The notes beneath the pieces are model-generated. The model did not search any database and was not told the origin of the DNA. It saw only the letters and a list, made by a program, of their open reading frames with translations. A stretch of 64,000 bases of DNA, taken from NCBI RefSeq assembly GCF_014803405.1, contig NZ_JACYFG010000006.1, forward strand, positions 441,501-505,500. Reading direction: 5' to 3'. Both the position numbers and the translations under genes were made by a program. Origin of the DNA: Pelagicoccus enzymogenes (GTDB lineage: Bacteria; Verrucomicrobiota; Verrucomicrobiia; Opitutales; Opitutaceae). Below, piece after piece: positions 25,366 to 48,183 of the stretch (positions are counted from its first letter, which is position 1; each line of letters begins with the position of its first letter).

Positions 25366-26496
25366 TTACTTCTTGGCGACCAAGCCTCCGAGCAAGCTCA
25401 GGAACTCGTCCATCTGCGGTTTCGTTCCGATACTCACGCGCGACCAATCAGCGTACTGGCTTTCCGGAGCGCCCGAAACGCGGGAACCGCTGATCAAGAT
25501 ACCGTTCTCGGCCATGGTGTCTCGCAGCACTTGCTGGTCGATGCCGGAGTTGAAGTAGACAAAGGCGCCGTCTGGCTTGGCATACTTGATGCCCAGCTTG
25601 TCGAAGGAATCCGTGACGTACTTGCGAACCGTTTGGTAGTTCTTCACGTTCGTCGCGAGGTGCTCCTTGTCCTTGATCGCTTCCGAGGCAGCGATAGCCG
25701 CCAAGTAGCTGGGAGCTCCCATGTGGTACACGCTGATCTTCTCGAGGATGTCGGGATGGGCCACCGCATAACCGATGCGGAAGCCAGCCAAACCATAGCT
25801 TTTGGAGAAGGTGCGCGTGACGATGACGTTCTTCTTGAGCTTAGCCAACGGAGCGCAGGTCGCGAGAGCGAAGTTCGTGTCCGCAAGCTCGAGGTACGCC
25901 TCGTCCACGAAGACAAGAATATCGTTGGGAATGCTCATTACGAACTGCTTCAGCTCCCCCGAGTCGGCGAGCACGCCGGTCGGATTGTTCGGATTGCAGA
26001 TGTAGACGATCTTGGTGTTCTCGTCGATCTCGGCCTTCAAGGCTGCAAAGTCGTAGCCCATGTCCTCGCTGAGCGGCGCGTACTTCACGTCTCCGCCGCG
26101 GGCCTCGAACTTGCGCACCAACTGCGTGTAACCCATCGCCGTAGTCACCACATTGGCTCCCGGCTCCGCGTAGGCCAAGGCCGTCATCATGAGGAGCGGA
26201 CCCGAACCGGCAGTCGTGAGGATGTAATCGGTCGTCACTCCCTCCTTCTTGGCGCAAAGCGCTTCGAGCTCGTTTACGTCGTTGCGGTTGTAGTAGCTGC
26301 CGCTTTCGAGGGCCTTCATCATCGCCATCTTGGCGTTGGGAGTGTAGCCGAAGGCATTTTCGTTACTGCTGAGACGCACAGGGCTGTTCTCAAGCGTCGG
26401 AGCAGGCTGGCCTACAAGCGAGCTTGTAAGCAGCGATCCGGCAATAGCAACCGGCATAACCCAGCTGCGGAATCGTCTTTCGACGGGATTAGACAT
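25366..26496 (-). CDS. Exported PLP-dependent aminotransferase (HisC-like), copy 1
   Basis: The start is ATGTCT at 26496 (MSNPVERRFRSW), at which the shared AAAAAGATGTCTA element lies; an upstream in-frame ATG at 26505 (MKKMSNP) adds three residues and could be used. The N-terminus, VERRFRSWVMPVAIAGSLLTSSLVGQPA, is a signal peptide with a weak Tat-like RRF. The 376-residue enzyme has the HisC-type fold I pattern: RLSSNENAFGY, NPNNPTGVL, FVDEAYLELAD, and the PLP lysine in RTFSKSYGLAGFRIGYA. It transfers amino groups to 2-oxo acids. HisC itself is cytosolic, so this is an exported relative acting on amino acids in the periplasm. It ends the TonB operon. Confidence 0.88.
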   Translation of the reverse strand: MSNPVERRFRSWVMPVAIAGSLLTSSLVGQPAPTLENSPVRLSSNENAFGYTPNAKMAMMKALESGSYYNRNDVNELEALCAKKEGVTTDYILTTAGSGPLLMMTALAYAEPGANVVTTAMGYTQLVRKFEARGGDVKYAPLSEDMGYDFAALKAEIDENTKIVYICNPNNPTGVLADSGELKQFVMSIPNDILVFVDEAYLELADTNFALATCAPLAKLKKNVIVTRTFSKSYGLAGFRIGYAVAHPDILEKISVYHMGAPSYLAAIAASEAIKDKEHLATNVKNYQTVRKYVTDSFDKLGIKYAKPDGAFVYFNSGIDQQVLRDTMAENGILISGSRVSGAPESQYADWSRVSIGTKPQMDEFLSLLGGLVAKK

Positions 26497-26502
26497 CTTT
26501 TT
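26490..26502 (-). promoter_or_regulatory. Start-codon element AAAAAGATGTCTA, aminotransferase copy 1
   Basis: Thirteen bases straddle the ATG of aminotransferase copy 1, identical to the core found at five other starts in this window (34617, 35065, 41659, 41910, 48170). The position preceding it is G instead of C. Confidence 0.6.
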
Positions 26503-26574
26503 CATAGTGTGGTGGTGGTAGTAAACTCGAGTCGCCAAAAGCTTTGCCAACCGAGATCCGTACCCGTGAATTAA

Positions 26575-27936
26575 CTACATTCTCAGGGCTGCTTGTTCGA
26601 TACGCAGCAGGTAGTCAGCAACGTAGTCCTTGGGATCGATTTGCTGAGCTTCGCGAAGGTATTTGGCAGCTGCAGCATAGTCGCGTTTGCCGACGTTCAA
26701 CTGGGCGAGAGCGATATAAGCTTGGTGAGAGTATCCATCGATCTTGGACGCGTTTTCCGCATAGTATTCGGCTTTAGCCAAATCGCCGCGCTTCTTCTCC
26801 AACTCGCTGAGGGAGAGCAACGCTCCTCCATTGAGAGGATCCTTCTTTACCAGATCTGCCAAGAACCCGGCAGCTCCATCCGTATCGTCTTCCTGCATTG
26901 CGAGGCGAGCCTTCACGTTGAGCACGCTCATCTCTTGAGACTCGCTCAAGCTGGAGGACATGATGGTTTCCAGCTTGGAGAGCAAGGTCTTGGCGCTCCC
27001 TAGCTGATCCATGTAGATCAGGGAATTAACCACTTCTATAATACGAGCGGGACGCGCCCCACCCAGCGACATCGCTTCGATGTAACTCTCTACGGCGGGC
27101 TCGACCAAACCTTCGTTGACCAGCAAGTCTCCCAACAGCGCGAGGGATGCTCCGTCCGCCTTGCCGAGGTCTTTGACGACCGTGAGGTTGGCAGCGGCCT
27201 TGGCGCGCTCGTCGAGAGCGAGGAACTGATTTGCCTGCAGCTTCCACCAGTCGGCCTTGTTGGGTTCGTCCTTGATAAATTCGTACAAGAGGCCAATCGC
27301 CTCCTGGGACCGATCCAAGGCAATCAAGCATTGCAACTGCCCCAGCTTCCAGTCCTTGCTGTCCGGAGCGAGCATGATGGCAACCTTGTAAGCATCCAGG
27401 GCAGTGGATGGCTTATCCATATTGAGATAACAGTATCCAATCAACCCATACATCGTGCCGTCACCCGTCATCATGGAGAGTGACTTCTGCAATCCCTTCA
27501 ATGCGTTCGCGTAGTCCCCTTGTGCGACGTAGGCGCGACCCATGTTGTAATAGGCTTGCGCGTAGTTCGGGAACTTCTTGATAGCCTTCTTGTAAGCCTC
27601 GACCGACTTCTGGGTCTGTCCTTCCTGATAATAGAGGTTGCCCAGGATGTAGTCGAAGGCAGCGCTGTTGTCAGGCCCCACCGCAGTGGACAGCCTCGCG
27701 ATCGCCGCCTTGGGATCAGATCCGATAAGAGGTACAATCTCGTCGAAGAGGCCTTTCTCTTCGGCAGTGATATTTGGATTTGTCTCGGACTGAGCGACAT
27801 AGCTCTTCGCAAATTGGGCTCGGAACTCGGGGTTGTCGAACGATTGCTCTTTGAGATCGTAAACCTGAGCGTGCAGGGCCGAGGTCAGCAGCGTGGCTGC
27901 CGCGGCAAGTGTCTTAAAGTAGGAACGTGTTTTCAT
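26575..27936 (-). CDS. Exported tetratricopeptide-repeat protein of the TonB system
   Basis: A 453-residue protein with a signal peptide (YFKTLAAAATLLTSALHA) and at least eight TPR-like helix pairs, such as LGNLYYQEGQTQKSVEAYKK and YYNMGRAYVAQGDYANALKGL. It follows tonB by 21 bp. TPR proteins at this position are typical of TtpC-type TonB operons of marine Gammaproteobacteria, where the function is not settled; it probably holds a periplasmic protein complex together. Confidence 0.85.
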   Translation of the reverse strand: MKTRSYFKTLAAAATLLTSALHAQVYDLKEQSFDNPEFRAQFAKSYVAQSETNPNITAEEKGLFDEIVPLIGSDPKAAIARLSTAVGPDNSAAFDYILGNLYYQEGQTQKSVEAYKKAIKKFPNYAQAYYNMGRAYVAQGDYANALKGLQKSLSMMTGDGTMYGLIGYCYLNMDKPSTALDAYKVAIMLAPDSKDWKLGQLQCLIALDRSQEAIGLLYEFIKDEPNKADWWKLQANQFLALDERAKAAANLTVVKDLGKADGASLALLGDLLVNEGLVEPAVESYIEAMSLGGARPARIIEVVNSLIYMDQLGSAKTLLSKLETIMSSSLSESQEMSVLNVKARLAMQEDDTDGAAGFLADLVKKDPLNGGALLSLSELEKKRGDLAKAEYYAENASKIDGYSHQAYIALAQLNVGKRDYAAAAKYLREAQQIDPKDYVADYLLRIEQAALRM

Positions 27937-27957
27937 CGTGGTAAAGTTTGTAGAAAG

Positions 27958-28632: not shown

Positions 28633-28657
28633 AATAACTTGAGAGGTCTCCAGCCCC

Positions 28658-29062: not shown

Positions 29063-29068
29063 AATACC

Positions 29069-29674: not shown

Positions 29675-29675
29675 G

Positions 29676-31058: not shown

Positions 31059-31084
31059 GTATAATGTCCTCCTAGGATTAAAAG

Positions 31085-31986: not shown

Positions 31987-34623
31987 CTAGAACTTGGTCG
32001 ACAACGTCAGCGCGACGTTGCGTCCACGGTCCGCTAGGACCTGGCCACTTGTTCCAGAGTACGAGCGTGCGTACCAGATGTACTGGTCGAAGAGGTTCGA
32101 GATGCTGAGGGATGCCTTCCAGCCTTCAAGAGGCGTGTCGGACGCACCCGTGTATGCGATACCGCCATCGAAGATCGTGTAGGAGTCTACAGGCTGGGTG
32201 TTCAGCGTGTTGACATACACGTCGTCGTAGTACTTGCCGCCAAAGTTGAACTTCCAGTTCCCCTTGGTGTAAATCGCGTCGAAGTTAGCAGTGAGGAACG
32301 GCGTGTTGCCGAGATCGTTGCCAGAGATATCTTGGTAGATTTCGTAAGCGAGAGGATCGCTTGTCGATGCGACACGGTAACCTTCACCGGCAGTTGGTAT
32401 TGGATCACCCGCTGCGATGCGGACGACGGAATCGAGCAAGTCTTCTTGGAAGGTGGTTTCCTGTAGAGCGATAGAACCGCTGAAGCTCAAGCCTTCGATA
32501 CCGGTCTTGATGTCTCCCGAAGCTTCGATACCCCAAGAGTCAACCCCGCCGACGTTTTGGTAACGAGTGTTACCGGCCGCACCAGCGTTCGGAGAATCGA
32601 TTGGCACAGGTACCGAGAGGATACGGTCGGTGTAGCTGACGCTGTAAGCTTGAAGCGTGTAGCTGCTGCTGCCGATGTTTCCGCGAATACCGATGTCGAA
32701 GTTTTCAGAGTACTCTGGCTTCAAGATGTCTGGGTCGAAGGTGTCACCTGCAGTGGTGATCGTACCTGAATTAGGCGTAGCCATGTTTTCAGAGTAGTTG
32801 AAGAACGCTTCCGTGTTGTCGTTGACCGTGTAGAGCAGGCCGAACTGTGGCAGGAACATGTCCTCGTACTTGGTGGAGCGGAAGGTTTCCTCGTTCTTGA
32901 GCCACTCGGAGATGGATAGGAATCCGTTCGCGTCACGGTCGAGGGTGATCGCCTTCACACCAGCGATAACTTCAAGATTACCGTCCATTGTTGTCCAAGT
33001 GTCTTGTACCCAGAACTGCATTACATCTTGGTCGATGTAGCGAGTGTAGTTGGTGAAGTTGAACTGGTCGTAGCGGTAAGCGCCGAGGATCGAACCACCG
33101 TCCAAGTTGAAGTTAGGACGCTCCGTACCGTGGTGGTCAAACTCGTACCAGCCACCCACGATCAGCTTGTTGTTCTCAGTTTCCCAAGTGTAGGAAGCTG
33201 TCACACCGTAGCGATGACCACCGAAGTTTTCGTCACGAGCCGTACGGCCTGGAACACCAGGAACGAAGGTCACGCCTGGAGCGTATGTCGGAGTTCCTGG
33301 GGCGACGATCGCATGCTCGTCACCATACTCGGTTACTATACTGCCGTCTTCGCCAATAGCGTTACCCGCTGCGTCATACCACATCTGCCCCCAAATATCG
33401 GTACGGCTTGGATCGTTCATGTAAGCGGCACGGACCTGAGTCTGAGCGTAGGCTTGGTCACGTCCCCAGAGACCGTAGTTGTTCTTGTCCTGGTAGTAGG
33501 TGACAACTTCCATGGACTTGCCCGGCTCGAAATCGAAGTCGAACTTGAAGCGCTGGAGCGTATCCATACGACCATTCTTCCACTTGTCGTAGTAGATGGC
33601 GTTCACGCCCTCACCGGCTCCGACCGAAGAATCTATGTATTTTACTGGACCAAGGTTACGTCCCTGATCGCTCAAATCTCCGTACTGGAAGGAACCACCA
33701 GGCATATCGGGAAAATCCCAAGGCGTGTACTCACGGTAGCCAAAGCCGGTACCGCGGTAGTTCCCCGCTTCGGCATCTTGCCATTCCTGCCAATCCAAAC
33801 CGGCAGTGTCGAAGTCGTCACGGTCGTTGTAGGTAACGGCGTAAGTGATGTCCAACTTGTCGGAAGGAAGCTCATACTTGAACTTCGCTTCGTAGCGTCG
33901 AGCCATGCCCTTGCCTAATCCGTCAAGTCCGCGCGGAGTGAACTCGAAGTGGGAACCGCTCACGTAGCCAGTGAAGCCGGGAGCGATTTCGCCCATCTCG
34001 TACTTACCGAAGAGGCTGATGTGATCGAAGCTGCCGTAAGTGGCGCTGAACATCGCGCCCTGCTCCTTGGAGGGATCCTTGGTGAAATACTGGAGCGAAC
34101 CGCCAAGCGCCTGGTAGGCAGGAGTCGTTACGTCGCCCGCACCTTGGGAAACCTTGATGGTGGTGAGGTTCTGGGAATCGACCAAACGACCGATCGGGCT
34201 ACCATAGCGAGGATCGGAAGTACCGACCGGCACGCCGTCAAGGGTTACCCCCAGGTTGGAGATATTGAAGGCACGAACGCGAATGTCGTTACCGAACTCG
34301 TAGAAACCAAAGGGGTCACGCGTTACCACGTTTACCCCCGGGATCTTGTCGACCATCTTTTCCGGAAGCGCTCCGGGCATCGCGATTTCGAGGGCCTCGA
34401 GGTCGAGAGAGTTGTTGGCGCGACTTTCGCCTTGGCCAACAGCTGTGAAGGTTTCGAAGACTTCCATTCCGGAACCTGAATCCTGGGCAACCGACTCGAA
34501 GCTGAGTCCTGCTAGCACGAGAGCTATTGCTGCCTTAGCGAGAGTCCCCTTGGACCTCTCGCCGCTGGAGGGATGCGAGCACATAGCTACGCCATCCGCG
34601 TTTAACGGTGTTGATTTAGACAT
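31987..34623 (-). CDS. TonB-dependent outer-membrane receptor 1
   Basis: The start is MSKSTPLNADGV at 34623, marked by the CAAAAAGATGTCTA element; the longer frame to 34692 adds an improbable tail. 878 residues: signal peptide (KAAIALVLAGLSFESVAQ), then a plug domain (EIAMPGALPEKMVDKIPGV, GVTLDGVPVGTSDPRYGSPIGRL, GGSLQYFTKDPS), then a 22-strand type barrel ending in aromatic Phe (LTLSTKF). Plug-barrel receptors import large substrates such as oligopeptides, chelates or saccharides at TonB's expense. The TonB apparatus is encoded directly downstream. The substrate is not readable; the neighbourhood points to peptides or amines. Confidence 0.92.
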   Translation of the reverse strand: MSKSTPLNADGVAMCSHPSSGERSKGTLAKAAIALVLAGLSFESVAQDSGSGMEVFETFTAVGQGESRANNSLDLEALEIAMPGALPEKMVDKIPGVNVVTRDPFGFYEFGNDIRVRAFNISNLGVTLDGVPVGTSDPRYGSPIGRLVDSQNLTTIKVSQGAGDVTTPAYQALGGSLQYFTKDPSKEQGAMFSATYGSFDHISLFGKYEMGEIAPGFTGYVSGSHFEFTPRGLDGLGKGMARRYEAKFKYELPSDKLDITYAVTYNDRDDFDTAGLDWQEWQDAEAGNYRGTGFGYREYTPWDFPDMPGGSFQYGDLSDQGRNLGPVKYIDSSVGAGEGVNAIYYDKWKNGRMDTLQRFKFDFDFEPGKSMEVVTYYQDKNNYGLWGRDQAYAQTQVRAAYMNDPSRTDIWGQMWYDAAGNAIGEDGSIVTEYGDEHAIVAPGTPTYAPGVTFVPGVPGRTARDENFGGHRYGVTASYTWETENNKLIVGGWYEFDHHGTERPNFNLDGGSILGAYRYDQFNFTNYTRYIDQDVMQFWVQDTWTTMDGNLEVIAGVKAITLDRDANGFLSISEWLKNEETFRSTKYEDMFLPQFGLLYTVNDNTEAFFNYSENMATPNSGTITTAGDTFDPDILKPEYSENFDIGIRGNIGSSSYTLQAYSVSYTDRILSVPVPIDSPNAGAAGNTRYQNVGGVDSWGIEASGDIKTGIEGLSFSGSIALQETTFQEDLLDSVVRIAAGDPIPTAGEGYRVASTSDPLAYEIYQDISGNDLGNTPFLTANFDAIYTKGNWKFNFGGKYYDDVYVNTLNTQPVDSYTIFDGGIAYTGASDTPLEGWKASLSISNLFDQYIWYARSYSGTSGQVLADRGRNVALTLSTKF

Positions 34624-34630
34624 CTTTTTG
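34617..34630 (-). promoter_or_regulatory. Start-codon element CAAAAAGATGTCTA, receptor 1
   Basis: The 14-base element spans the receptor start (ATG at 34623-34621). The 5' leader just upstream contains overlapping GGTTT/AAACC repeats able to form alternative hairpins. Confidence 0.6.
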
Positions 34631-35079
34631 TATGGTTTGAGTTTAGCTTTAAACCACCTGAGGTTTAGCATCAACGATGCCAAAACAGCCACGGCTCAAC
34701 GGAAGTGGAATAAATTTGGAACAAATCCTCAATTCTCCGCTATCGCTGCTCCCTTTCGACGATCCCCGTTCCATCAATACGCCTCATAATTAGTCGTATT
34801 ACTTTTATAACTACAGAGTAACTACCGACAAACGCAGCCCCCGCCGCGCCCGAAACCGAAGCCTCCCATCCCTTATATATTATTGTAGCGCCGAAGCGAC
34901 GACGGTACACCAGCCCCCTCGCCAGGTTCGACGATCAAAATAGAGCAGCCCGTCACGGAGGGCGTTTTGCTCAATTGCTTGCACCTCCAAAATTTACGGC
35001 GACACACGCATTCATGGCGCAAAGTCTGCTCGCCGCCCTCTTGGACGGGCGTTGATGCTCGCCGCAAAAAGATGTCTAA
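34624..35079. other. Divergent intergenic region between the two TonB receptors
   Basis: 456 bp with no gene I can support. It holds promoters for both directions by position. AT-rich tracts (around 34780-34810 and 34870-34885) are the best candidate promoter areas, but no -35/-10 pair is clear. In the minus-strand leader GGTTT (34634-34638, plus-strand reading) can pair with AAACC (34651-34655), which can instead pair with GGTTT (34662-34666). Confidence 0.5.
35065..35078 (+). promoter_or_regulatory. Start-codon element CAAAAAGATGTCTA, upstream of receptor 2
   Basis: The same 14-mer, but here its ATG opens a three-codon reading frame (Met-Ser-Lys-stop, 35072-35083), whose TGA overlaps the true receptor start ATGA at 35080. 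In the other five genes this ATG is the gene start. Confidence 0.6.
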
Positions 35080-37515
35080 ATGAAGCCTTTCAGAAGCAAC
35101 CCCGTAACGGTTGCGGGAGCGCTGCTATGCTCGTGCCTAACAGCACCAGCCGGCCAGTCGCAAACCGCTGCCAGCACCATAAGCCCGAGCTCCACCGCTC
35201 CCAGAGAAGCCGCTCCCGCTGCCGAGCAAAAGGACGAGACGAACCAAAGCCCGCGAGAGCGAGGACGCATCTTGGTGAAACGAAATCCAATCGCCTCCGA
35301 GTATCAGGTATTTGGCGACATCGGGACCAGCCCCGGAGCTGACGCCGACGGCGAAGGCGTCGACTTTCGCTCCTTTTTCCCTAGCAGGTCGCCCAACGCA
35401 AACCCAAGCGACTCCTTGACCTTAGGCTACAGTTTGAACTTCAACGACCAGTCGGGCATCGGGAAGAGCGGCTACAGCCTCTCCTTCTCAAAGGCGCTCG
35501 ATCCTGAAAAGAAGTGGGTCATCGCTGCCCAATACAAAGACAGCGCCTCAGATCGACTCATCGAGCACTATGAGTCCGTGTGGCTGCAAAGCCCTGGCGA
35601 GGAAACCTACTACCTCGACCGCCCTCGTTTTTCCTTCGACGAAATCTTGACCGAGAACACGGTCGCGACCGCCCAAATCGGGTTCAGACCCAACGACCGT
35701 CACGAGTTCTACTTCAAGACCTCCTACCAAGATTACGCGGACGATTCCTACCGCAACCGAATCGAACTGCAGACCGGCGCCGCAACTGTAGTCGATGGCT
35801 CCCAATCGGTAGCGGACGACGGCACAATCCTCGCAGCCTCCTTCGAGGACGCTCGTACCCGCCGCTATTTCGGCGATACCGAGAACCGCAGAACGCGCCT
35901 CCACAACACCTTCGGAGGAACCTACAACGGAGACGACTGGACCGTCGACTACTCCGTGTATACTCAAAAGTGGGATCTCAACACACTGTGGTACAACTGG
36001 AACTTCCAGGACCGAGGCCTCGACCTTTCTTACCAAGTCGACGACCCCTACCTTCCCAACATAACGGTGCACAACGGCATCGACTTGCTCGACACCAGCA
36101 CCGCAGCCTTCTCGAATCTGCGTATCCACGACAGCGCGACACGCGACCGCGACCTCGCAGCACGCGTCGACGCTGACCGGCAGCTTTCGATCGCCGGGGC
36201 TGACTACTGGATCCAAACCGGCGCCCTCCATCGCGAAAAGGAGAGAAACACCTGGGAGGATCGCACCGTATTTCTCCCGATCACAGGAAACAGCTTCACC
36301 CTCGATCAAGTCGCGTTCGACCACTCGGGCTCCCCACTCCTTTCCGGCACCTACACTCAGCCCCCTGGCCTTTCACCCAGCAAGAGCCGGGCATTCGTGG
36401 AGGAGCATCCGGAAATCTTCGTGAGCAACGAATTTCGCGAGAAAGTGGAATCCGCGCCCCAGTCCTACACTGCTGAGGAGTCCGTTAGCTCGGCTTACCT
36501 GCTCGGAACGAGAAAAGTCGGCGAATGGACCTACGAACTTGGCGGGCGCCTCGAACGAACCAAAACGGCGACCCGCGGTACCGTAATCATCCCTGAGGCC
36601 GTAAACGACCCCGAAGAAGGGGAACTGATCGAGATCATCGAGGATCCCAATTCCGGCTCGGACCTGATCATAAAGGACCTGTACTCGGAAAACTCATACA
36701 CTAACTTCATACCCAGCGCCGAGGTTTCGTACAACACCACACCTGACACCACTTGGAAAGCCGCGTGGTTCCAGCTACTCATGCGTCCCCAATACTACAA
36801 CATCGTAGACTACCGCCGCATCAGCATCCCAACCCGCAGCATATCGGAAGGGAACCCAGACCTAAATCCTACCGAGATCGACAAGTTCCGCCTTTCGTGG
36901 ACAAAGAACAACGAAACGCTCGGCACCTTTTCCATCGAAGGCTACCTAATCAATATCGAGAACTTTTTCTACGGTTCCGTATCCGAAGACACCATACTGG
37001 AAGAAGGTACCCCCACCATCTACAAGGTCAGCCGTGTGCAGAATGGCGAAGAGGCCAAAATAAAAGGGTTTGAAATCCAATGGAGCAAGACGGCGAAGGA
37101 CTTTGGCTTCCTCGACAGCGCCACCGCTAGCTTCGCCTACACCTACTCGGACTCGGAAGCCAATGTCCAGTCGCGACCTGACGACATCCTTCCCACGCCG
37201 GAACGCTCCGAGCACCTCGGCAAGCTCAGCCTAAAGGGCACCATCGGAAGCCTCACCTCCGGCATCGACCTCAGCTACCAAAGCGAGGCCCTCGACGACC
37301 TTGGAGGTTCGTATTCTCAAGACGAATACAGGGAAGCGGTCATTCGCCTAGACGCCCGCAGCAGCTACCGACTTGACGAGAAAACGACGCTAAGCATCAA
37401 CCTCTCGAATCTTACCGACCACCCGGAACGTTCCTACGAGGGCTCGCCATACCGCGTAACCCGCAATCAATACAGTTCCTGGTTTGGCACCTTTAACGTT
37501 TCGCGCTCTTTCTAG
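35080..37515 (+). CDS. TonB-dependent receptor-like barrel lacking a recognisable plug
   Basis: An 811-residue protein with a signal peptide (PVTVAGALLCSCLTAPAG), then a short linker, then a beta-barrel of alternating strands (SLTLGYSLNFNDQSGIGKSG, VDYSVYTQKWDLNTLWYN) ending in the outer-membrane C-terminal Phe (FGTFNVSRSF). The usual plug of about 120 residues (TonB box, DGxP motif, GGxxxF) is not visible between the signal and the barrel: the linker (RILVKRNPIASEYQVFGDI) leads into barrel-type sequence by residue about 95. It resembles the barrel half of the IroN/CirA-like oligomer receptors. Downstream (12 bp) is an MFS transporter, so it is probably an uptake pair. It may be a remodelled or decaying receptor. 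Confidence 0.8.
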   Translation: MKPFRSNPVTVAGALLCSCLTAPAGQSQTAASTISPSSTAPREAAPAAEQKDETNQSPRERGRILVKRNPIASEYQVFGDIGTSPGADADGEGVDFRSFFPSRSPNANPSDSLTLGYSLNFNDQSGIGKSGYSLSFSKALDPEKKWVIAAQYKDSASDRLIEHYESVWLQSPGEETYYLDRPRFSFDEILTENTVATAQIGFRPNDRHEFYFKTSYQDYADDSYRNRIELQTGAATVVDGSQSVADDGTILAASFEDARTRRYFGDTENRRTRLHNTFGGTYNGDDWTVDYSVYTQKWDLNTLWYNWNFQDRGLDLSYQVDDPYLPNITVHNGIDLLDTSTAAFSNLRIHDSATRDRDLAARVDADRQLSIAGADYWIQTGALHREKERNTWEDRTVFLPITGNSFTLDQVAFDHSGSPLLSGTYTQPPGLSPSKSRAFVEEHPEIFVSNEFREKVESAPQSYTAEESVSSAYLLGTRKVGEWTYELGGRLERTKTATRGTVIIPEAVNDPEEGELIEIIEDPNSGSDLIIKDLYSENSYTNFIPSAEVSYNTTPDTTWKAAWFQLLMRPQYYNIVDYRRISIPTRSISEGNPDLNPTEIDKFRLSWTKNNETLGTFSIEGYLINIENFFYGSVSEDTILEEGTPTIYKVSRVQNGEEAKIKGFEIQWSKTAKDFGFLDSATASFAYTYSDSEANVQSRPDDILPTPERSEHLGKLSLKGTIGSLTSGIDLSYQSEALDDLGGSYSQDEYREAVIRLDARSSYRLDEKTTLSINLSNLTDHPERSYEGSPYRVTRNQYSSWFGTFNVSRSF

Positions 37516-37527: not shown

Positions 37528-38832
37528 ATGACCGCGATCGAAAAAGAACGCCTCAACGAAGCGAGAGCGTGGAAGACGCTCTTCTTCGTCAGCCTCGTCA
37601 ATTCCGCGCAGGCCGCCCTTGCGGTAATTGGCATTCCATCCCTTGCCGACCAGCTATCGCTAAGCGGCCCGCAGCTCACCAGCCTTCTGGCAGCCCTACC
37701 CATTGCCGCCGGAGTTGCAGCCGCAGTCGCAGGGCCGCTTTCTGACCGATTCGGAAGGAAGCGGACCTTGCTCACCGGTCTCGCTCTCCTGGGCAGCTCG
37801 CTCATCCCCCACTCCATCGCGGAACACTACATCCCGCTGCTTCTCCTGCGCGTCGCCACCGGCTTCGCTACCGGAATCCTCATGGGACTTCCCTCGACCC
37901 TCCTCAGCGACACCTTTCGCAAGGACAGGCAGCAAGCCCTCTCCGGAAAAACGCTCTGCGGCTACGCCATCGGCCAAACCGTGGGAATTCCTCTCGGCAT
38001 TTGGCTGATGGACTGGACCAACTTCCTCTGGGTCTGCGCCCTGTACGGAGCCTTCGCCCTCGCCTGTATCCCCTTTGCCTATCGACTGCTTCCCAACCCC
38101 ACCCACCCCAACCATAACAAGTCCGCAGCCAAATGGATCGCCAACTACGCCCGCCGTTCCTGCGAAACCTTCAAGGACAAAGACTTCAACCTGATCGCCG
38201 CGGCCTCCTTCCTAAGCTTCACCGCGCTCTCAACCTTCTACGTTAGCTTCGCGCTCTGGCTCTTTTCCACCGCTGCATTGAGACCTTCCGAGATCGCTCC
38301 CATGTACCTAGCTGGAGGATTGCTGCAAGTGCTCGTATTCACCGCGATCCTCCAACGCCTAACGAAACTAAGGCCCCAGCTCACCATCGCCATATCCCTG
38401 ATCCTCAACACGCTCATATTTTCCTCCGTCTATCCCGGACTGACGAGCCTCAACGCCGCGACCCTGTTCTTCGCCCTGACGCTCGGCGCCGTCTCCTTGC
38501 GCATCCCCGGTCTGCAGTACCTGATAAACAACCGCGGGGATCCCCTGCAAAAAGGACTCCGGGTCAGCCTCAACCAAACAAGCAGCCATCTAGGGAAAGC
38601 ATTGGGATCAATACTAGGCGGAAGCCTCTTTCCGATCATGGGAATGCATCAAATTGCACTCTTCTGCGGGGTGTTAACCCTAGCCTGCAGCTTACTTTTT
38701 CTAAGGGATTTATTTAGCGAGCTCAATGCTGAACAAATAAAGCCCAAACGCCTGCGCAACAGGAGGGGAGAAAATTTCAATATCCAAAAAATTGAAAAGT
38801 GGGGTAGCTCTGGCACGCACGTTGCTAACTGA
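37528..38832 (+). CDS. MFS transporter (drug/solute permease type)
   Basis: A 434-residue protein with twelve hydrophobic segments and the classical MFS loop motif GPLSDRFGRKRTLLTG after helix 2. It starts 12 bp after the receptor 2 stop, so the pair is one operon. The family (bacillibactin/arabinose efflux-like MFS_1) includes inner-membrane importers and exporters; here import of the receptor's substrate is the simplest guess. Confidence 0.85.
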   Translation: MTAIEKERLNEARAWKTLFFVSLVNSAQAALAVIGIPSLADQLSLSGPQLTSLLAALPIAAGVAAAVAGPLSDRFGRKRTLLTGLALLGSSLIPHSIAEHYIPLLLLRVATGFATGILMGLPSTLLSDTFRKDRQQALSGKTLCGYAIGQTVGIPLGIWLMDWTNFLWVCALYGAFALACIPFAYRLLPNPTHPNHNKSAAKWIANYARRSCETFKDKDFNLIAAASFLSFTALSTFYVSFALWLFSTAALRPSEIAPMYLAGGLLQVLVFTAILQRLTKLRPQLTIAISLILNTLIFSSVYPGLTSLNAATLFFALTLGAVSLRIPGLQYLINNRGDPLQKGLRVSLNQTSSHLGKALGSILGGSLFPIMGMHQIALFCGVLTLACSLLFLRDLFSELNAEQIKPKRLRNRRGENFNIQKIEKWGSSGTHVAN

Positions 38833-39205
38833 AGATGTCTAGTAAACAGGTAACAACTGCGAACCAGAGCTGACTACGATTGATAGGTTCGGGGCGCATA
38901 AGATCAATTCTATTTTGATTCGATATAGGAGAATTTTCTTCATGCAACGCCTGCACTCGTCGCAACACATGTAATTATTCGCCAACTACAGTTACCTGGG
39001 ATCCAACTTTGAAGCGCTCGACTTAACAAGTCGGGCGCTTTTGTTTGCCTAGAGTCCTGCCACGCGCCGAATGTCGCATGCGACCTAGCGCTGAGCCGAT
39101 CCGAAGGCGACAACCCGCACTTTAGCCAGCGACCAAAGAAGACAGATCTCTCAGCGCGGACGCCGGCCTAAAGCGCGGCGCTACTCACGATACATGACAC
39201 GCTAC
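38833..39205 (+). other. Intergenic region with a possible small transcript
   Basis: 373 bp between the MFS gene and the aminotransferase gene. It contains ATGTCTAGT at 38835, a ten-codon frame at 38942-38974 with a good SD (AGGAGA, 38927-38932), a likely hairpin (AATTCTAT with ATAGGAGAATT, 38906-38936) covering that SD, and a strong terminator at 39012. It may be the 3' end of the MFS transcript or a small RNA. A GC-rich imperfect palindrome of REP type lies at about 39154-39184. Confidence 0.4.
39012..39046 (+). terminator. Rho-independent terminator
   Basis: Thirteen-base-pair stem (AAGCGCTCGACTT with AAGTCGGGCGCTT, one G-T pair) with a 3-base loop and a T-rich tail (TTTTGTTT). Confidence 0.85.
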
Positions 39206-40366
39206 TCAGGAGGCGAAAACCTCTCGCATCGCTTTCTCGTAGTCAGCCATCTCCTTTGGCGTGCCGATGCTGATACGACACCAGTCGTCATATGGCGGAA
39301 ACGGTCTTCCCACTAGAAAGCCACGGTCCTTCATGCGCTTCTGGAACTCGCGAATTTCGATGCCCGTATAGTGGAATACGAAGTTCCCTACCGAAGGAGT
39401 GTACGCGAGTCCCAACTCGTCTAACAGACTGCAAAATTCCTGACGGCCCTTCGCTATCAACTCGCGAGATCGAGCGTGAAACGCGTCGTCATCAACGCTC
39501 GCTATCGCAGCGATCACGCCCAGATAGCTCGGACTCGACATCTTGTAGCGCCCCATCTTTTCTACGATTTCCGGACGAGCGATCGCGTAACCGATACGAT
39601 GTCCCGCCAGGCCATGCATCTTGGAAAACGAGCGCCCAATGATAACGGGATAGCCCTGCCTAACGAGTTCCACCTGCGTCTGAGCAGCGAAATCTGGCAA
39701 TAGATCCAAATAGACTTCATCGAGAAAGACCGCTCCTGTATCGCTCGCCTTGATACAATAATTCTTGATGTCTTCGGCAGAGCAAATGGTCCCGGAGGGC
39801 GTATCCGGATTGCAAATATAGCTCAATACGGCTTTGCGTTCTTCCACCGCCGACAGCATGGCCTGCAGATCGTGCTGCATGCTCTTCGCGTGACTCACCC
39901 ACTCCACATGAGCGCCCTTCTTTTCAGCGTGCTCTCCAAGCTGCAGATACGTCGGACTCGCCGAAACCACCGTCTTTCCAGGAGCTGCGTACGCTGCAGC
40001 AGCCAAAGCCAATATCTCGTCGCATCCGTTGCCCAATATTACGTGGTCCGAAGGAACGCCTTCCCGTTCCGCAATCCGATCCTTGAGGATCTCTTCCTCC
40101 CTAAACGGGTATCGGCAGCTGTTTCCCACCTCGCGCATGATCGCCATGCTGACTTTCTGCGAGGGGCCAAAAGGATTCTCGTTACCTGCCAAATTGATGT
40201 GCTTTAACTCTGGATACCTAGCGATCCGGCTTTGAGCGCCCGGAGCGGCTTGGCCAAGCAGGCGACCTCCAAGAGCCATGCCCAAGGACATTACCCCCGC
40301 ATTTCGTATCCAATCGCGGCGGCTAATCGCTCCGCCCTTCCTGTTTCCCGCATTCTTTCCAACCAT
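39206..40366 (-). CDS. Tat-exported PLP-dependent aminotransferase (HisC-like), copy 3
   Basis: The start MVGKNAGNRKGG (40366) gives a clear twin-arginine signal: ISRRDWIRNAGVMSLGMALGG. The 386-residue enzyme has INLAGNENPFGPS, CNPDTPSGTI (normally NPNNPTG), FLDEVYLDLLPD, and the PLP lysine in GRSFSKMHGLAGHRIGYA. A folded, PLP-loaded enzyme would be exported by Tat, which agrees with its cofactor. Unlike copies 1 and 2, its start does not carry the CAAAAAGATGTCTA element. It lies downstream of copy 2 on the same strand. Confidence 0.9.
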   Translation of the reverse strand: MVGKNAGNRKGGAISRRDWIRNAGVMSLGMALGGRLLGQAAPGAQSRIARYPELKHINLAGNENPFGPSQKVSMAIMREVGNSCRYPFREEEILKDRIAEREGVPSDHVILGNGCDEILALAAAAYAAPGKTVVSASPTYLQLGEHAEKKGAHVEWVSHAKSMQHDLQAMLSAVEERKAVLSYICNPDTPSGTICSAEDIKNYCIKASDTGAVFLDEVYLDLLPDFAAQTQVELVRQGYPVIIGRSFSKMHGLAGHRIGYAIARPEIVEKMGRYKMSSPSYLGVIAAIASVDDDAFHARSRELIAKGRQEFCSLLDELGLAYTPSVGNFVFHYTGIEIREFQKRMKDRGFLVGRPFPPYDDWCRISIGTPKEMADYEKAMREVFAS

Positions 40367-40385
40367 TGTGAAATAAACTCCCAAT

Positions 40386-40513: not shown

Positions 40514-41665
40514 CTAAAGCTTTCCTTGGCCCTTCATCACCTCTTCGAAAACAGTGAGGAAAGTGCTCATTTCGTCTTCAGTGCCGATACTAACGCGGCA
40601 CCAGTCGAGCATTGGAGGGAATGGACGACCTACCATGATCTGACGTTCTTCCATCAACCCTTGAAATTCCTTGATAGGCACTCCGGTCTTCATGAAGACG
40701 AAGCTGCCCTGCGGATACGCGTACTCGATTCCCAGTTCGTCGAGGCGGTCGGTGACCATCTTGCGTACCGAGCGGTAGCTGCTTACGCTTTGCTCAAAGA
40801 AAGCAGTATCTTGCAAGGAGGCGACAGCCGCAACGCAACCGAGCTTGTTTGGGCCACCCATGTGGTACTTGCGCAGCTTGGCCTTCGTATCCGGCTTCAT
40901 GATACCATATCCAACGCGAAGTCCGGCCATTCCGTATACCTTGGAGAAGGTACGAGCGAGGATGATGTTTTCACCTTCGCGGACGAGCGGGACCATGCTG
41001 TGAGCCGCCAAGCCACCGTCGGCAAGTTCGAGATAAGCCTCGTCAACGAAAGCGACGATATCCTCTGGGAGCTCACGAATAAAAGTCTTGAGGGCGTCCG
41101 GATCGACGACCGTACCGGTCGGGTTGTTCGGATTGCAGAGATAAACCATCACCGTGTTCTCGTCGATCGCCGCCTTAACTGCGTCGAGGTCGTACTCAAG
41201 CTTGTCGTTGAGCGGCACCAGCTTCGTCTCGCCACCAAAGGCGTCGAAAGTACGGACCAATTGAGTGTAGCCTGGCTCGACGGAAACCACATTCTTGCCC
41301 GGAGCGGCGTAAGCCATGGCAGCCATCTGCAGCACTGGGCCGGAACCGGCCGTCGGAACGACGTAATCGCCGGGTACCATTTCACGCATGGCAATCGCTT
41401 CGATCAACGCCTGGGACTCTTCCCAAGCATAGCGATTAATGTCCGGCAACTCCTGCATGATAGCCATCATGGCCATCTGCGAGTAACCAAACGCGTTTTC
41501 GTTTCCGCTGATTTTGATAGGACCAGCGCTGCCCTCGCTCGAGTCAACCTCGTGCTGAGAGAAGGCCACCTGAGGAGAAAGCGCAAAAGTCGCTGCGGCA
41601 AAGAGCGATGTTATGAGAGACGCGGAGCCATGCCCCGACTTTTTCGGTACCGTTGTAGTAGACAT
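40514..41665 (-). CDS. Exported PLP-dependent aminotransferase (HisC-like), copy 2
   Basis: Begins at MSTTTVPKKSG (41665), at the shared start element. The signal (SASLITSLFAAATFALSPQVAFSQ) looks like Sec, with KK instead of RR. The 383-residue enzyme carries KISGNENAFGYS, NPNNPTGTV, FVDEAYLELADG and the PLP lysine in ARTFSKVYGMAGLRVGYG. It is close in sequence to copy 1 (same NENAFGY region) and more distant from copy 3. It is transcribed divergently from the amine oxidase operon, 251 bp away, suggesting shared control. Confidence 0.9.
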   Translation of the reverse strand: MSTTTVPKKSGHGSASLITSLFAAATFALSPQVAFSQHEVDSSEGSAGPIKISGNENAFGYSQMAMMAIMQELPDINRYAWEESQALIEAIAMREMVPGDYVVPTAGSGPVLQMAAMAYAAPGKNVVSVEPGYTQLVRTFDAFGGETKLVPLNDKLEYDLDAVKAAIDENTVMVYLCNPNNPTGTVVDPDALKTFIRELPEDIVAFVDEAYLELADGGLAAHSMVPLVREGENIILARTFSKVYGMAGLRVGYGIMKPDTKAKLRKYHMGGPNKLGCVAAVASLQDTAFFEQSVSSYRSVRKMVTDRLDELGIEYAYPQGSFVFMKTGVPIKEFQGLMEERQIMVGRPFPPMLDWCRVSIGTEDEMSTFLTVFEEVMKGQGKL

Positions 41666-41672
41666 CTTTTTG
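41659..41672 (-). promoter_or_regulatory. Start-codon element CAAAAAGATGTCTA, aminotransferase copy 2
   Basis: The 14-mer spans the start of aminotransferase copy 2 (ATG at 41665-41663). No strong AGGAGG stands in front of it. Confidence 0.6.
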
Positions 41673-41748
41673 ATTGTTTTAGGTTAAATCGAAACACCTG
41701 CTTTGAGCACGTGCCATGCCCAAAAGCCTCCCCATACAGAAAAACAAC

Positions 41749-41765: not shown

Positions 41766-41909
41766 ATTTCGGCCCTTATACTAATGTACAAATCGTCGAC
41801 GAGGAGCTGTTAATACTGCTTAGCCAAGCCCCCGTATCGACAATTCTTCGACAAATAGGCACGGGCTTTGCTGATGCCCAACAAAAGGCGCTCAGCGCAC
41901 TATTTTATA

Positions 41910-41923
41910 CAAAAAGATGTCTA
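41910..41923 (+). promoter_or_regulatory. Start-codon element CAAAAAGATGTCTA, amine oxidase
   Basis: The 14-mer covers the amine oxidase start at 41917. Confidence 0.6.
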
Positions 41924-43494: not shown

Positions 43495-43868
43495 AATTTG
43501 CATCGAAGTTCTTCGCAGGAGCGAGCCTCTCTTCCATTCTCGCGCTCGCCTACGCCTGCGCAAATCCCCAGTCTCCCAGCCCAGCGAAGGCCGACCCGGC
43601 CTCTATCCAAAAAGGCAAGGAGACCTATGCCATGTTCTGCCAAGCCTGCCACGGGCCGGAAGATCCCAGCATCGACTCGCCAAGCAATCTTTTCGACAGA
43701 AAGTGGTTTCACGGCGAGGGCCGAGCCGGCGTGGAAAAATCCATCCGCGAAGGCATAATGGAAAAAGGCATGCCTGGCTGGGGACCCATGATCCCTTCCG
43801 AGGACATAGACGCCATCCTCGACTACCTCTTCAGCTTCCAAACAACAGAAACATCAACAGATGAATAA
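43491..43868 (+). CDS. Periplasmic class I cytochrome c
   Basis: The start ATG at 43491 overlaps the oxidase stop by 4 bp. The 125-residue protein has an export signal (KFFAGASLSSILALAYACA; Cys 21 could be lipidated but the lipobox is weak), one heme motif CQACHG and a distal Met in EKGMPGWGP. It is suited to carry electrons from the flavin amine oxidase to a terminal oxidase. The ammonium transporter gene overlaps its end by 8 bp. Confidence 0.9.
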   Translation: MKFASKFFAGASLSSILALAYACANPQSPSPAKADPASIQKGKETYAMFCQACHGPEDPSIDSPSNLFDRKWFHGEGRAGVEKSIREGIMEKGMPGWGPMIPSEDIDAILDYLFSFQTTETSTDE

Positions 43869-45216: not shown

Positions 45217-45237
45217 GGAAACGTAAACGTATCCAAT

Positions 45238-46668
45238 ATGTCTTTACTTCCACAGCATAAGTTTCGCTACGTGGCCGGGCTCTTCGTGCTCGCGGCGGGG
45301 GCTTACATTGGGCTCCGCTTCGTCGGGGCAAACTCCAACGAGCGCATTACCGTCCACAAGCAAGCTTCGCTTCCTTACGCCGATGCGGTCGAGGTGGCTC
45401 CCGGTTCCGAGTACTTCTATACCTGGGGCGTTACGGCCAGCCCACGCATGAAGGAGATAGCCAAGAACAGCGTAGAGAACCGCTACGGCGACACCTACGA
45501 GCAGACCTTCAGCGTGCTGGCCCAATTGACCAAAGACCTAGCCGAGGTAGGGCTCACCTTGCGCGACGTGGTCAATGTGCGAGCTTACATCGTTGCGGAC
45601 CCAGAACCGGACTTCGACGGTTGGAATCGCGCCTTCAAGCAATTCTTCGGCACCACGACTAACCCGCACAAGCCGGCCCGTACCACCGTGGGAATCTCCC
45701 GCCTCTTCCACTCCGACTACCGCGTGGAAGTAGAGTTCGTGGCCGTCTTCCCAGATGGACGTGGACCGCACACTGCAGGAACGCGACAGCATGAGCGCTA
45801 CACCCGCTTGAGTCGGACCGAAACCAGCGAGCGCTGGAAATCCTACGGTCGCCCCATCTGGCCCATGAGCACGGGCAAGGCAACGGTTGCGGATACGAGC
45901 ATGTTCTTCTCCTCTTCCGTAAGGCCTGCCTCCCTCATGCCGAATCCACCACCGGGATTTTTCATGTACGGGAATATCAGCCAGCAGTCTGCCTCCCTCT
46001 TCAAGCAAATGGGCAGCCAGTTGAAAGAGGCAGGGCTGGGCTTCGAGGACGTGTTCTTCATCCGAGCTTGCGTCTATCCGGGGAAAGATTCGATCAGCAA
46101 GAGCTTCGCTGCCTTCAATCAGGAATACAGCAAGTTCTTCAACAACGATCGTAATCCGAACCAACCGACGCGTACCGTGATGTCGACTCCCGGTTTCAAC
46201 TACCGAAACCAAAGCATCTCCATCGAGTACTACGCGGCGTATCCAGAAGACAGCGACAGGGAATTCGCGACTGCTCGCGCTTCGATCGGTTCCACTCCTG
46301 CCGTCGTCGATTCCAAGCCAATCGCGCCCGCTGGCGTCTCCGTGTCGGCCGACGCCAAGATGGTTTTTCTCGCGGGCAGCATTCCTTCGGTAGAAGGAGA
46401 CATGAAGGCCCAAGCAAGCTCCGCTCTCGAAGCGTTAAAGGCAAGGGTGGAGCTAGCTGGAGGCACCTTGGACGATCTGGTGCACGTGCGGGCCTACATC
46501 GCCGAGGGCGACCTAAAGACATTGGACAAGCGTATCGCCGAGTGGGAAGCGCTGTATCGGGAGACTTTTAGCGGTGAAAACGCCCCCGCCATCACCACCC
46601 TCCCAGTCGTTTCCATCGTCGGCAACGGAATCATTGAACTCGAGGGTGCAGCAGCCATACTTCCCTGA
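45238..46668 (+). CDS. Membrane-anchored protein with three tandem Rid (YjgF/UK114) domains
   Basis: A 476-residue protein. One N-terminal helix (YVAGLFVLAAGAYIGLRFVG) anchors or exports it. Three Rid-like repeats follow, about residues 40-180, 210-345 and 355-476. Repeats 1 and 2 keep the substrate-binding Arg (NPHKPARTTVGISRLFH; NPNQPTRTVMSTPGFN), but in repeat 3 it is Ile (NAPAITTLPVVSI). Rid proteins hydrolyse reactive enamines/imines to keto acids and ammonia, exactly what an amine oxidase would produce. Rid proteins are normally single-domain trimers of cytosol; a covalent, exported triple form is unusual. Confidence 0.85.
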   Translation: MSLLPQHKFRYVAGLFVLAAGAYIGLRFVGANSNERITVHKQASLPYADAVEVAPGSEYFYTWGVTASPRMKEIAKNSVENRYGDTYEQTFSVLAQLTKDLAEVGLTLRDVVNVRAYIVADPEPDFDGWNRAFKQFFGTTTNPHKPARTTVGISRLFHSDYRVEVEFVAVFPDGRGPHTAGTRQHERYTRLSRTETSERWKSYGRPIWPMSTGKATVADTSMFFSSSVRPASLMPNPPPGFFMYGNISQQSASLFKQMGSQLKEAGLGFEDVFFIRACVYPGKDSISKSFAAFNQEYSKFFNNDRNPNQPTRTVMSTPGFNYRNQSISIEYYAAYPEDSDREFATARASIGSTPAVVDSKPIAPAGVSVSADAKMVFLAGSIPSVEGDMKAQASSALEALKARVELAGGTLDDLVHVRAYIAEGDLKTLDKRIAEWEALYRETFSGENAPAITTLPVVSIVGNGIIELEGAAAILP

Positions 46669-46717
46669 TGTGCCAACCATCGACGCCACAAAGTCCGAAG
46701 ACCATCTAGAACGAGAG

Positions 46718-48130
46718 ATGCCAAAATCGCTGCTCAGCATGGCCACTATCGGTGGGCGTACTCAAGACACAGACGAGCGATTTGAGGTCATCAATCCGGC
46801 AACGGGCGCCGCGTTTTCCACGGCGCCCCTCTGCGGCGCTCCAGAACTAACGGCAGCGGTAACGTTCTGCAAGCGGGCCCAACCCCAGTGGGCTCAGTCC
46901 GAGAGAAATCGGCGAGGCGCCCTCCTTGCCTGCTCGCACGCCATTGCGCGAAAGCAGGAGGACTTGGCTAAACTCATTACCCTAGAGCAGGGAAAGCCTA
47001 TCGCGGAAGCCCGCAGCGAGGTTGCCTACGCTGCAGAAGTCTTCGCCGCCTACTCCGAGATGGAGGTCCCTAGCAAAGATCTGTCGAACGGAGAGACGAG
47101 CCGCACCCTACTCTTCAACAGACCTTACGGTATCGTCGGCCTGATCACACCTTGGAACTTTCCCATCGGCACCGCGGCGGTGAAGCTCGCCCCTGCCTTG
47201 CTCGCTGGAAACGCCGTGATCCTCAAACCCTCACCCATCGCTCCGCTATCCCCGCTTCTGCTCGGACGCATCCTCAAAGACCTCCTCCCCGCCGGGATCC
47301 TCAACACGCTTTCGGGGGACAAGAGCCTAGGGGAGCAGATAACCCGACATCCCGACATCCGAAAGCTTTCCGTCACGGGCTCTATCCCCACCGGGCAGGC
47401 GATCCTCTCTGAGGCTGCGGTTGAACTTAAGTCGGTTACCCTGGAGCTTGGCGGCAACGACCCCGCCATTTTACTGCCCGACTGCGACCCTCACGAGATC
47501 GCGGGGCAGCTCCTTGACTCAGCCTGGCGAAACGCTGGACAAGTTTGCAGCGCCATCAAACGCATCTACGTCCACCAATCCCGGCATAGCGAACTGATAG
47601 CGGCCCTTTCAAAACTGACGCCAAACTATAAAGTCGGATCCGGCATGGAGAGCGGCGTACGGATTGGCCCGCTCACAACAGAGTACTCAAGGGAACGACT
47701 GACTGAGCTTCTTCAAAGCGCCATAGCAGAGGGCGCCAAAGTAACGAAAGACTCCCGACCACTGCCCTCGCACGGTTATTTTTTCTCGCCCGCTATCGTA
47801 TCGGAAATCAGAGCAGATCATCCTTTGGTGCTCGAGGAGCAATTCGGACCCATCCTTCCAGTAGTTCCCTACCGAAACATCGACGAAGCTATCGAATGGT
47901 CGAACGCTACCAACTACGGCCTCTCCGCATCCGTATGGACAAAGTGCCCAAGCGTTGGATACGAAATCGCCTCCAAGCTCGAATGCGGTCGCGTCGGCGT
48001 TAACGGTCATCGCAGGGCAAAAGCCGCTGCCCCCTTCGGCGGATTCAAGCATTCCGGACTCGGTCGAGAACTCGGCTCCTGGGGCCTCGCTGAGATGTGC
48101 GAGTCTCAAGTCGTCAATATTTTCGAATAG
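46718..48130 (+). CDS. Aldehyde dehydrogenase (succinate-semialdehyde dehydrogenase-like)
   Basis: I use ATG at 46718 (MPKSLLSMATIGG); a GTG at 46670, directly after the Rid stop, is an alternative adding 16 residues. The 470-residue NAD(P)+ enzyme has GLITPWNFPIG, catalytic Glu in VTLELGGNDPAIL, catalytic Cys in AGQVCSAIKRIYVH, and LEEQFGPILPVVPY. No signal peptide: cytosolic. It converts an aldehyde from amine oxidation into the acid. Gabaldehyde (GabD)-like by overall motif, but the substrate is not fixed. Confidence 0.9.
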   Translation: MPKSLLSMATIGGRTQDTDERFEVINPATGAAFSTAPLCGAPELTAAVTFCKRAQPQWAQSERNRRGALLACSHAIARKQEDLAKLITLEQGKPIAEARSEVAYAAEVFAAYSEMEVPSKDLSNGETSRTLLFNRPYGIVGLITPWNFPIGTAAVKLAPALLAGNAVILKPSPIAPLSPLLLGRILKDLLPAGILNTLSGDKSLGEQITRHPDIRKLSVTGSIPTGQAILSEAAVELKSVTLELGGNDPAILLPDCDPHEIAGQLLDSAWRNAGQVCSAIKRIYVHQSRHSELIAALSKLTPNYKVGSGMESGVRIGPLTTEYSRERLTELLQSAIAEGAKVTKDSRPLPSHGYFFSPAIVSEIRADHPLVLEEQFGPILPVVPYRNIDEAIEWSNATNYGLSASVWTKCPSVGYEIASKLECGRVGVNGHRRAKAAAPFGGFKHSGLGRELGSWGLAEMCESQVVNIFE

Positions 48131-48169
48131 TTCAGCCTTCCGCACCACTCGAAACCTAGCCAACACCAA

Positions 48170-48183
48170 CAAAAAGATGTCTA
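48170..48183 (+). promoter_or_regulatory. Start-codon element CAAAAAGATGTCTA, gamma-glutamyltransferase
   Basis: The 14-mer spans the ggt start at 48177, within the operon rather than at its front. That position argues against a promoter role and for translation or mRNA processing. Confidence 0.6.

Follow-up and report, generated by a model that had tools for sequence, protein, structure and literature searches.

In a 64,000-nucleotide (nt) stretch of Pelagicoccus enzymogenes DNA (assembly GCF_014803405.1, contig NZ_JACYFG010000006.1, positions 441,501 to 505,500; "the window"), a 14-nt sequence, CAAAAAGATGTCTA, is repeated at the starts of six clustered genes. Comparison with related genomes indicates that this start-codon box is most probably the target of a base-pairing hairpin RNA (~38784-38876 of the window, minus strand), which would repress a scavenging regulon at its start codons. 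Pfam matches identify the boxed genes as encoding a TonB-dependent receptor (TBDR), an OMP beta-barrel protein (OMP), two class I/II aminotransferases (AT1 and AT2), a flavin amine oxidase (AOX), and gamma-glutamyltranspeptidase (GGT), in agreement with an earlier sequence-only reading of this DNA, which had named two receptors, two aminotransferases, the amine oxidase and ggt. Between or beside them lie genes for an MFS carrier, an ammonium transporter, an L-PSP-type protein, an aldehyde dehydrogenase (ALDH), and an M19 dipeptidase.

The window contains five exact copies of the box and one, at AT1, with G instead of C as its first base, as the sequence-only reading had reported; the sixth copy is also a 14-mer (26490-26503). 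That reading held that chance would not produce this number, and with two mismatches allowed, six matches arose in none of 100 shuffles (shuffle mean 0.31). Within the 6.2-Mb source genome there are six exact 14-mers, the five in the window and one at C5:701542 (reversed control, 0), all in the sense orientation and at or slightly ahead of a gene start. When up to two mismatches are permitted, the genome yields 27 matches and the reversed control also 27; thus, the excess is confined to near-exact copies. The 10-nt word AAGATGTCTA is present at 15 sites (reversed control, 3): nine gene starts, the RNA locus, and five sites that look like chance. The nine starts consist of the six cluster genes and three genes outside the cluster (Table 1). 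One of the latter, the DAO-family oxidase gene at C37:225319, has a Tat-like leader by eye and, 11 nt ahead of its core, a sigma-54-type site; it is likely an extra target. A 10-mer at C37:98536 (L202), which heads a 136-codon frame with no Pfam match, was counted as chance, and a 13-mer out of frame inside a signal peptide (L114) is probably chance as well.

The box is restricted to a few genomes and, within these, to particular genes. Among 252 genomes of the family, the exact 14-mer occurs in ten: eight of the genus, G008 of a second genus, and G211 of a third. Among 384 genomes sampled from the class, four besides the source contain a single 14-mer each, and the control gives six hits. The eight genus genomes have the box at largely the same genes, and one of them (G019), with 65-76% identity in the aligned blocks, retains all six without change, the G variant among them. 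When best matches of the cluster genes were collected from nine genomes (the eight plus G008, two of whose matches are <30% identical), the core AAAAAGATGTC, at up to one mismatch, was near the start in 48/54 matches of the six boxed genes but in only 1/63 matches of seven unboxed ones (TPR, MFS, the aminotransferase AT3, ammonium transporter, L-PSP, ALDH, and M19). These counts are independent of a second set of 54 box copies, which were chosen by similarity to the 14-mer (up to two mismatches). Within families, the identity of the box is 0.93-1.00, a value partly built in by this choice, versus 0.23-0.60 for the 60 nt upstream and 0.39-0.93 for the coding sequence downstream. The A-run is absent from the OMP box of G201 and from C37:225319, yet the 10-nt core is present in both. 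Thus, in the genome-wide search and the comparison of relatives that the sequence-only reading had proposed, copies are not spread over unrelated start codons, and relatives with the same genes keep the box, except GGT in 3/8 and AT1 in 1/8 genus genomes.

The box ATG is likely the gene start in AT2, TBDR, AOX, and GGT. The sequence-only reading had taken it as the start in five genes; this is likely for these four, but AT1 may begin 9 nt earlier. An ATG at 26503-26505 (minus strand) precedes the AT1 box ATG by this distance (ATG AAA AAG ATG) and is kept in 7/7 genus genomes having the AT1 box; it may be the true start, and it accounts for the G variant. At AT5 and the TonB_C protein, the box ATG lies 6-9 nt ahead of a second ATG, in frame. 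At OMP and AT4, it opens a mini-ORF (open reading frame; MSK* and MSTL*, respectively) that ends on the real ATG; in the window, the 3-codon ORF beginning at 35065 ends with a TGA that overlaps the ATG at 35080. OMP of G008, OMP of G200, and L117 have the box ATG out of frame, which breaks a rule by which it would in every case be in frame or coupled by stop and start; thus, the box ATG is not always the working start. GGT begins 46 nt after ALDH, and its box is probably operon-internal.

The lack of a strong Shine-Dalgarno (SD) sequence, also pointed out by the sequence-only reading, is real but not special: pairing with the anti-SD at <= -4 kcal/mol is found for 3/54 box copies versus 13/56 control starts. 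(A small-subunit rRNA was looked for in the source assembly, and none was found.) The unpaired fraction is 0.66 for the box and 0.55 for control starts, the box also being richer in A+T (0.72 versus 0.63). Short hairpins adjoin the box up- or downstream in AT1, TBDR, and OMP; these are suggestive, but their placement is inconsistent and their null (column permutation) breaks the codon structure, and they were not used.

The proposed partner of the box was found by comparing 9-13-nt complements inside the cluster across seven genomes; the sequence-only reading had advised looking for a conserved complementary sRNA. A 10-mer, TAGACATCTT, is present where the MFS and AT3 genes converge in 7/7 of these genomes and also in G200, with a one-base variant in G008; on the minus strand, it lies inside the loop of a long stem-loop in 9/9 genomes. 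In the nine-genome alignment, 87% of the cells of the 23-pair stem are paired, compared with 31-40% when slid. Eight of the 23 pairs are changed on both sides, and the covariation score of 0.349 (shuffles, 0.217) was equalled in none of 500 shuffles and is also higher than in every slid version; the 5' arm of G008, apparently misaligned by one, was counted as is. Of the cells, 145 are Watson-Crick, 35 are G.U on the minus strand, 4 are A.C (G.U on the plus strand), and 23 are other. The minimum free energy (MFE) is lower on the minus strand in 9/9 genomes, although by a small margin in the source genome (-33.5 versus -31.3). The loop has an identity of 0.96, while that of the stem parts is 0.40-0.86, the inner 5' arm being the lowest at 0.40. 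The 3' arm overlaps the end of the MFS gene in several genomes; in G201, G019, and G008, however, the loop is 58-102 nt past the MFS stop, and thus coding alone is insufficient to explain its conservation.

A covariance model built on the eight genus sequences, leaving out G008 and G211, finds the hairpin in 10/252 family genomes, the same ten that contain the exact 14-mer; outside the training set, it matches G008 at 51.3 bits and G211 at 42.8 bits. Rfam gives no match at gathering score in the whole window and four weak hits nearby (E at least 1.4), none on the hairpin. In G201, a second hairpin with an unrelated stem (L189/L186; G201:C12:131148-131227) carries the same TAGACATCTT word; by eye it lies beyond the 3' end of a small gene that has an export-type leader, and it has no opposing sigma-54-type site. 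A search for 13-nt antisense sequences (perfect or wobble) anywhere in the eight genus genomes gave 76 hits besides the boxes versus 69 for the control. Among the 54/76 hits inspected, in 53 loci (none from G200, 2/11 from G198, 6/12 from G199, and 9/11 from G019), there are only three cross-genome groups, all in long open frames.

The loop is complementary over 10 nt to the box core, AAGAUGUCUA, with the AUG covered and UAGACAUCUU as the pairing strand. When each of the 54 copies is set against the loop of its own genome, 53 pair at 10/10 positions (50 entirely by Watson-Crick pairs and 3 with one G.U), and the remaining copy has a terminal mismatch. Outside this count are AOX of G008 (ending in GATGTCCG), OMP of G008 (GATGTCCT), OMP of G201 (core kept, no A-run), the coreless GGT of G198, G199, G200, and G008, the coreless AT1 of G200, L112-L118, the DAO gene, and four G211 boxes. 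The G008 loop, UGGACAUCUU, differs by one change, and the TBDR and AT1 boxes of this genome, GATGTCCA, carry the matching change; its AT2 box retains a wobble against the changed loop. By duplexfold, the genus loop with the genus box gives -12.8 kcal/mol and the G008 loop with the G008 box -14.8 kcal/mol, while the crossed sets give -12.5 (G008 loop, genus box) and -9.9 kcal/mol (genus loop, G008 box). Box and hairpin, the minus-strand identity of the latter, their complementarity, and their shared distribution are all apparent in the genomes compared. The suggestion of the sequence-only reading that the box might be the target of a small RNA (sRNA) is therefore supported by a conserved hairpin in the cluster, with an exact antisense loop and the same distribution over 252 genomes.

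Table 1. Box-bearing gene starts, the proposed RNA gene, and associated sites (window coordinates unless a contig or locus is given)
Feature	Position (strand)	Remarks
AT1 start-codon box	26490..26503 (-)	GAAAAAGATGTCTA; core kept in 7/8 genus genomes
TBDR start-codon box	34617..34630 (-)	core kept in 8/8 genus genomes
OMP box	35065..35078 (+)	opens MSK*; core (<=1 mismatch) in 7/8 genus genomes
AT2 start-codon box	41659..41672 (-)	core kept in 8/8 genus genomes
AOX start-codon box	41910..41923 (+)	core in 8/8 genus genomes, one with 1 mismatch
GGT start-codon box	48170..48183 (+)	core kept in 5/8 genus genomes
TonB_C protein	C5:701542	further box-bearing start
Aminotransferase behind MSTL*	C35:297091	further box-bearing start
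DAO-family oxidase (L203)	G000:C37:225319	ninth start; 10-nt core, no A-run
Proposed small RNA gene	~38784-38876 (-)	convergent MFS/aminotransferase (AT3) gap
Stem-loop of proposed small RNA	38806..38871 (-)	covariation, strand test, MFE z -5.9; model match 95.5 bits, this hairpin itself being among the model-building sequences
Loop, 15 nt	38832..38846 (-)	UUUACUAGACAUCUU (= TTTACTAGACATCTT); last 10 nt antisense to AAGATGTCTA
T-rich tail 3' of stem	38784..38805 (-)	possible terminator; not called by terminator scan
Block upstream of RNA	38897..38910 (-)	GAATTGATCTTATG; identical in 5/9 genomes, similar in the rest (by eye)
TBDR sigma-54-type site	34667..34682 (-)	
OMP sigma-54-type site	35015..35030 (+)	
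AT2 sigma-54-type site	41706..41721 (-)	
AOX sigma-54-type site	41857..41872 (+)	
Opposing sigma-54-type -24/-12 site	38811..38826 (+)	antisense into RNA gene; overlaps stem 3' arm
Aminotransferases with export-type leaders	25366-26496, 39206-40360, 40514-41665; L009, L112, L116, L118	

Sites were scored against the sigma-54 -24/-12 consensus, and RpoN is encoded in the source genome. A sigma-54-type site lies 34-45 nt upstream of the box in 33/33 scored copies of TBDR, OMP, AT2, and AOX; shuffles match the scores of these sites in 0 to 5.5% of cases. For AT4, AT5, and the DAO gene the site is ~10-20 nt upstream, for AT1 a high-scoring site is 94-110 nt upstream in 3/8 copies, for GGT a site is 16 nt upstream in 1/5 copies (G201), and for the TonB_C protein none recurs upstream of the box. 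Since the distance varies or the site is absent, a promoter at a fixed distance is not the common reason for the box, which agrees with the conclusion that the sequence-only reading had drawn from an operon-internal copy. At the RNA gene, a sigma-54-type site, TGGCRC-N5-NTGCT, faces the opposite way in 10/10 cluster loci (score 17.5-19.5 of 19.5). A scan of GTDB contigs for a sigma-54-type site followed by a box, from which records of the source genome or near ones were possibly left out, gave two single hits in unrelated taxa.

In the proposed mechanism, a stem-loop RNA would be made from the minus strand, and 10 consecutive nt of its loop, for which a YUNR turn (CUAG) may provide order, would pair with the start codon and adjacent bases of every target mRNA. 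The AUG would then be inaccessible to the ribosome, so that the whole group would be repressed at once. The regulon would comprise TonB-dependent receptors, the TonB_C-domain protein, GGT, and aminotransferases and oxidases that have leaders of the export type. We infer from the sequence comparisons that the RNA is produced, that it pairs in vivo, and that it represses, and likewise its promoter, its 3' end, and the sign of the regulation. It could arise from its own promoter near the upstream block or from the 3' untranslated region (UTR) of AT2-AT3, presumably one operon: the RNA is on the AT3 strand in 9/9 genomes, with its loop 161-396 nt past the AT3 stop, and AT2, the next gene upstream, is boxed. 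A self-sufficient hairpin would fit the eight genus genomes, in none of which Hfq is detected. A sigma-54 transcript from the opposite strand would be complementary to the RNA over its 5' half and, as a conjecture, could relieve repression. The fuller picture, in which one hairpin reads a nine-gene "translational address" in a largely sigma-54-driven regulon of a genus in which no Hfq is detected, and the antisense sigma-54 promoter removes the repressor under nitrogen shortage, is put forward tentatively, as rather less likely than not. There, the box would sit slightly ahead of the likely start at some genes, as part of a mini-ORF or a short extension, and promoter activation would be coupled to translational derepression.

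Several points weigh against repression by a hairpin RNA. Hfq (PF17209) is found in 0/8 genus genomes (it was detected in 5/14 control genomes), and thus an Hfq-independent route is needed; at the same time, a duplex of 10 bp (-12.8 kcal/mol) is short. Pairing accounts neither for the AAA conserved on the 5' side of the core nor for the 5' UUUAC of the loop, and the pairing rate is conditional on selection, since resemblance to the 14-mer was the criterion for picking the 54 copies. The core is missing from GGT in G198, G199, and G200, and from AT1 in G200, although the hairpin is present; GGT of G008 also lacks it. The scan called neither a sigma-70-type promoter nor a terminator at the RNA gene, and the best promoter-like hexamers at the ten cluster loci do not surpass shuffles. 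Weak hairpins may have escaped the family scan, in which stricter filters were applied. G211 is a fragmented bin with 6% contamination and possibly not an independent lineage; ten hairpin genomes in three genera, including this bin, therefore offer limited independence. On the supporting side, G211 has boxes at 4/4 of TBDR, OMP, AT2, and AOX, and the gene order matches; the boxed cluster is on a 23-kb contig (L188, G211:C158) in this bin of a distant genus, which represents either transfer or mis-binning.

An unlikely alternative is a sequence-specific RNA-binding protein that recognises the box in mRNAs and for which the hairpin locus is a decoy or a further binding site. Such a protein would make sense of the AAA, which is not part of the pairing core, and the 10-nt word does occur on the plus strand at the hairpin locus; yet the G.U bias (35 versus 4) and the folding energy point to the minus strand, which carries the complement rather than the word. 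The G008 loop and two G008 boxes have changed in step, as pairing predicts, but a protein site on loop and boxes would also co-change, and thus this change alone is not decisive. The functional RNA might instead be the plus-strand sigma-54 transcript, acting as a sense decoy that shares part of the word, which we consider very improbable: the sigma-54 consensus is on the plus strand at 10/10 cluster loci, but that strand folds more weakly in 9/9 genomes, and its transcript is predicted to start inside the loop, leaving half of the covarying stem outside it.

The regular spacing of sigma-54-type sites ahead of TBDR, OMP, AT2, and AOX would suit a DNA operator just downstream of sigma-54 promoters, at which a repressor forms a roadblock. 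This is highly improbable, given that the six exact source-genome copies are all in the sense orientation at or near a gene start, that the register with the ATG holds while the sigma-54-type distance varies (with no site for the TonB_C protein), and that the conserved complementary loop would be left unexplained. There is next to no likelihood that the box is merely a translation start optimised for strong expression (A-rich, ATG TCT A): it is A-rich, open, and SD-poor, but only 6 exact copies exist genome-wide and the seven other cluster genes lack it, and TCT, which makes up 10% of the 798 serine codons in 20 window ORFs, is codon 2 in 52/54 of the similarity-chosen copies. The sequence-only reading had also entertained an RNA-binding protein and a special initiation signal, but of its proposals the sRNA is the one supported; a general initiation context does not fit the genome-wide counts and control genes.

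If the hairpin RNA does read the box, it would provide an exceptionally clear example of RNA regulation in trans that does without Hfq, with loop and box changing together. It would link receptors, aminotransferases, and oxidases into one regulon, from which exact pairings and a target list follow, and it suggests how a gene could become a new target once its start codon gains the 10-nt word. Several class I/II aminotransferases per genome have export-type leaders (Sec or Tat-like, by eye; Table 1), and extracytoplasmic aminotransferases would be unusual. A coding stretch for a small cytochrome c (Cytochrome_CBB3; 43497-43859, plus strand) lies between the genes for the amine oxidase and the ammonium transporter.

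The top-ranked matches of open-literature searches describe no sRNA regulator for this lineage, and the one paper containing "Opitutales" and "sRNA" together concerns another subject, as far as the title and the start of the abstract indicate. Nor do these top-ranked matches describe the combination seen here, in which a single hairpin loop matches a near-invariant box at nine starts, with a sigma-54-type site opposite the RNA gene and no Hfq detected. Its parts, however, resemble known kinds of regulation. In Pseudomonas, Hfq/Crc reportedly controls catabolic genes through an A-rich motif, with CrcZ as a titrating RNA; this, too, is control at the RNA level at catabolic gene starts, but here no Hfq is found, and a complementary loop matches a site of fixed sequence. 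The hok/Sok and pIP501 RNAII/RNAIII pairs are cis-encoded. They are sense/antisense pairs that use a YUNR/U-turn loop, the motif of hok/Sok lying in the hok mRNA (PMC6562991). Similarly, CUAG or CUGG is seen by eye beside the pairing bases in the loop of the ten cluster copies, possibly by chance; here, however, the targets are elsewhere in the cluster or genome, only 10 nt pair, and the RNA would be trans-acting, with many mRNAs as targets.

OppZ and CarZ of Vibrio cholerae are autoregulatory sRNAs derived from 3' UTRs, which lie beyond a metabolic operon, pair with mRNA of the same locus, and inhibit translation (PMC7398697; PMC9438474). Here, too, the RNA is downstream of, and on the same strand as, the inferred operon that it would target. 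As between mRNA processing and a promoter of its own, no promoter is called and the upstream block is partly conserved. OppZ depends on RNase E and Hfq (PMC7398697; PMC9438474), whereas here no Hfq is found, a near-identical box is present at nine starts, and the reader is a predicted hairpin loop. GlnZ, an sRNA from the glnA 3' UTR, is likewise tied to a nitrogen gene and to nitrogen regulation; unlike the RNA proposed here, it is Hfq-dependent and pairs far upstream of the sucA initiation region (PMC9731577). Finally, CJnc190 is a trans-acting, translation-repressing sRNA with a cis-encoded antagonist, CJnc180 (PMC8687705). This antisense antagonist is comparable to the sigma-54-type site opposite the RNA gene, where the counterpart of CJnc180 is a predicted promoter only.

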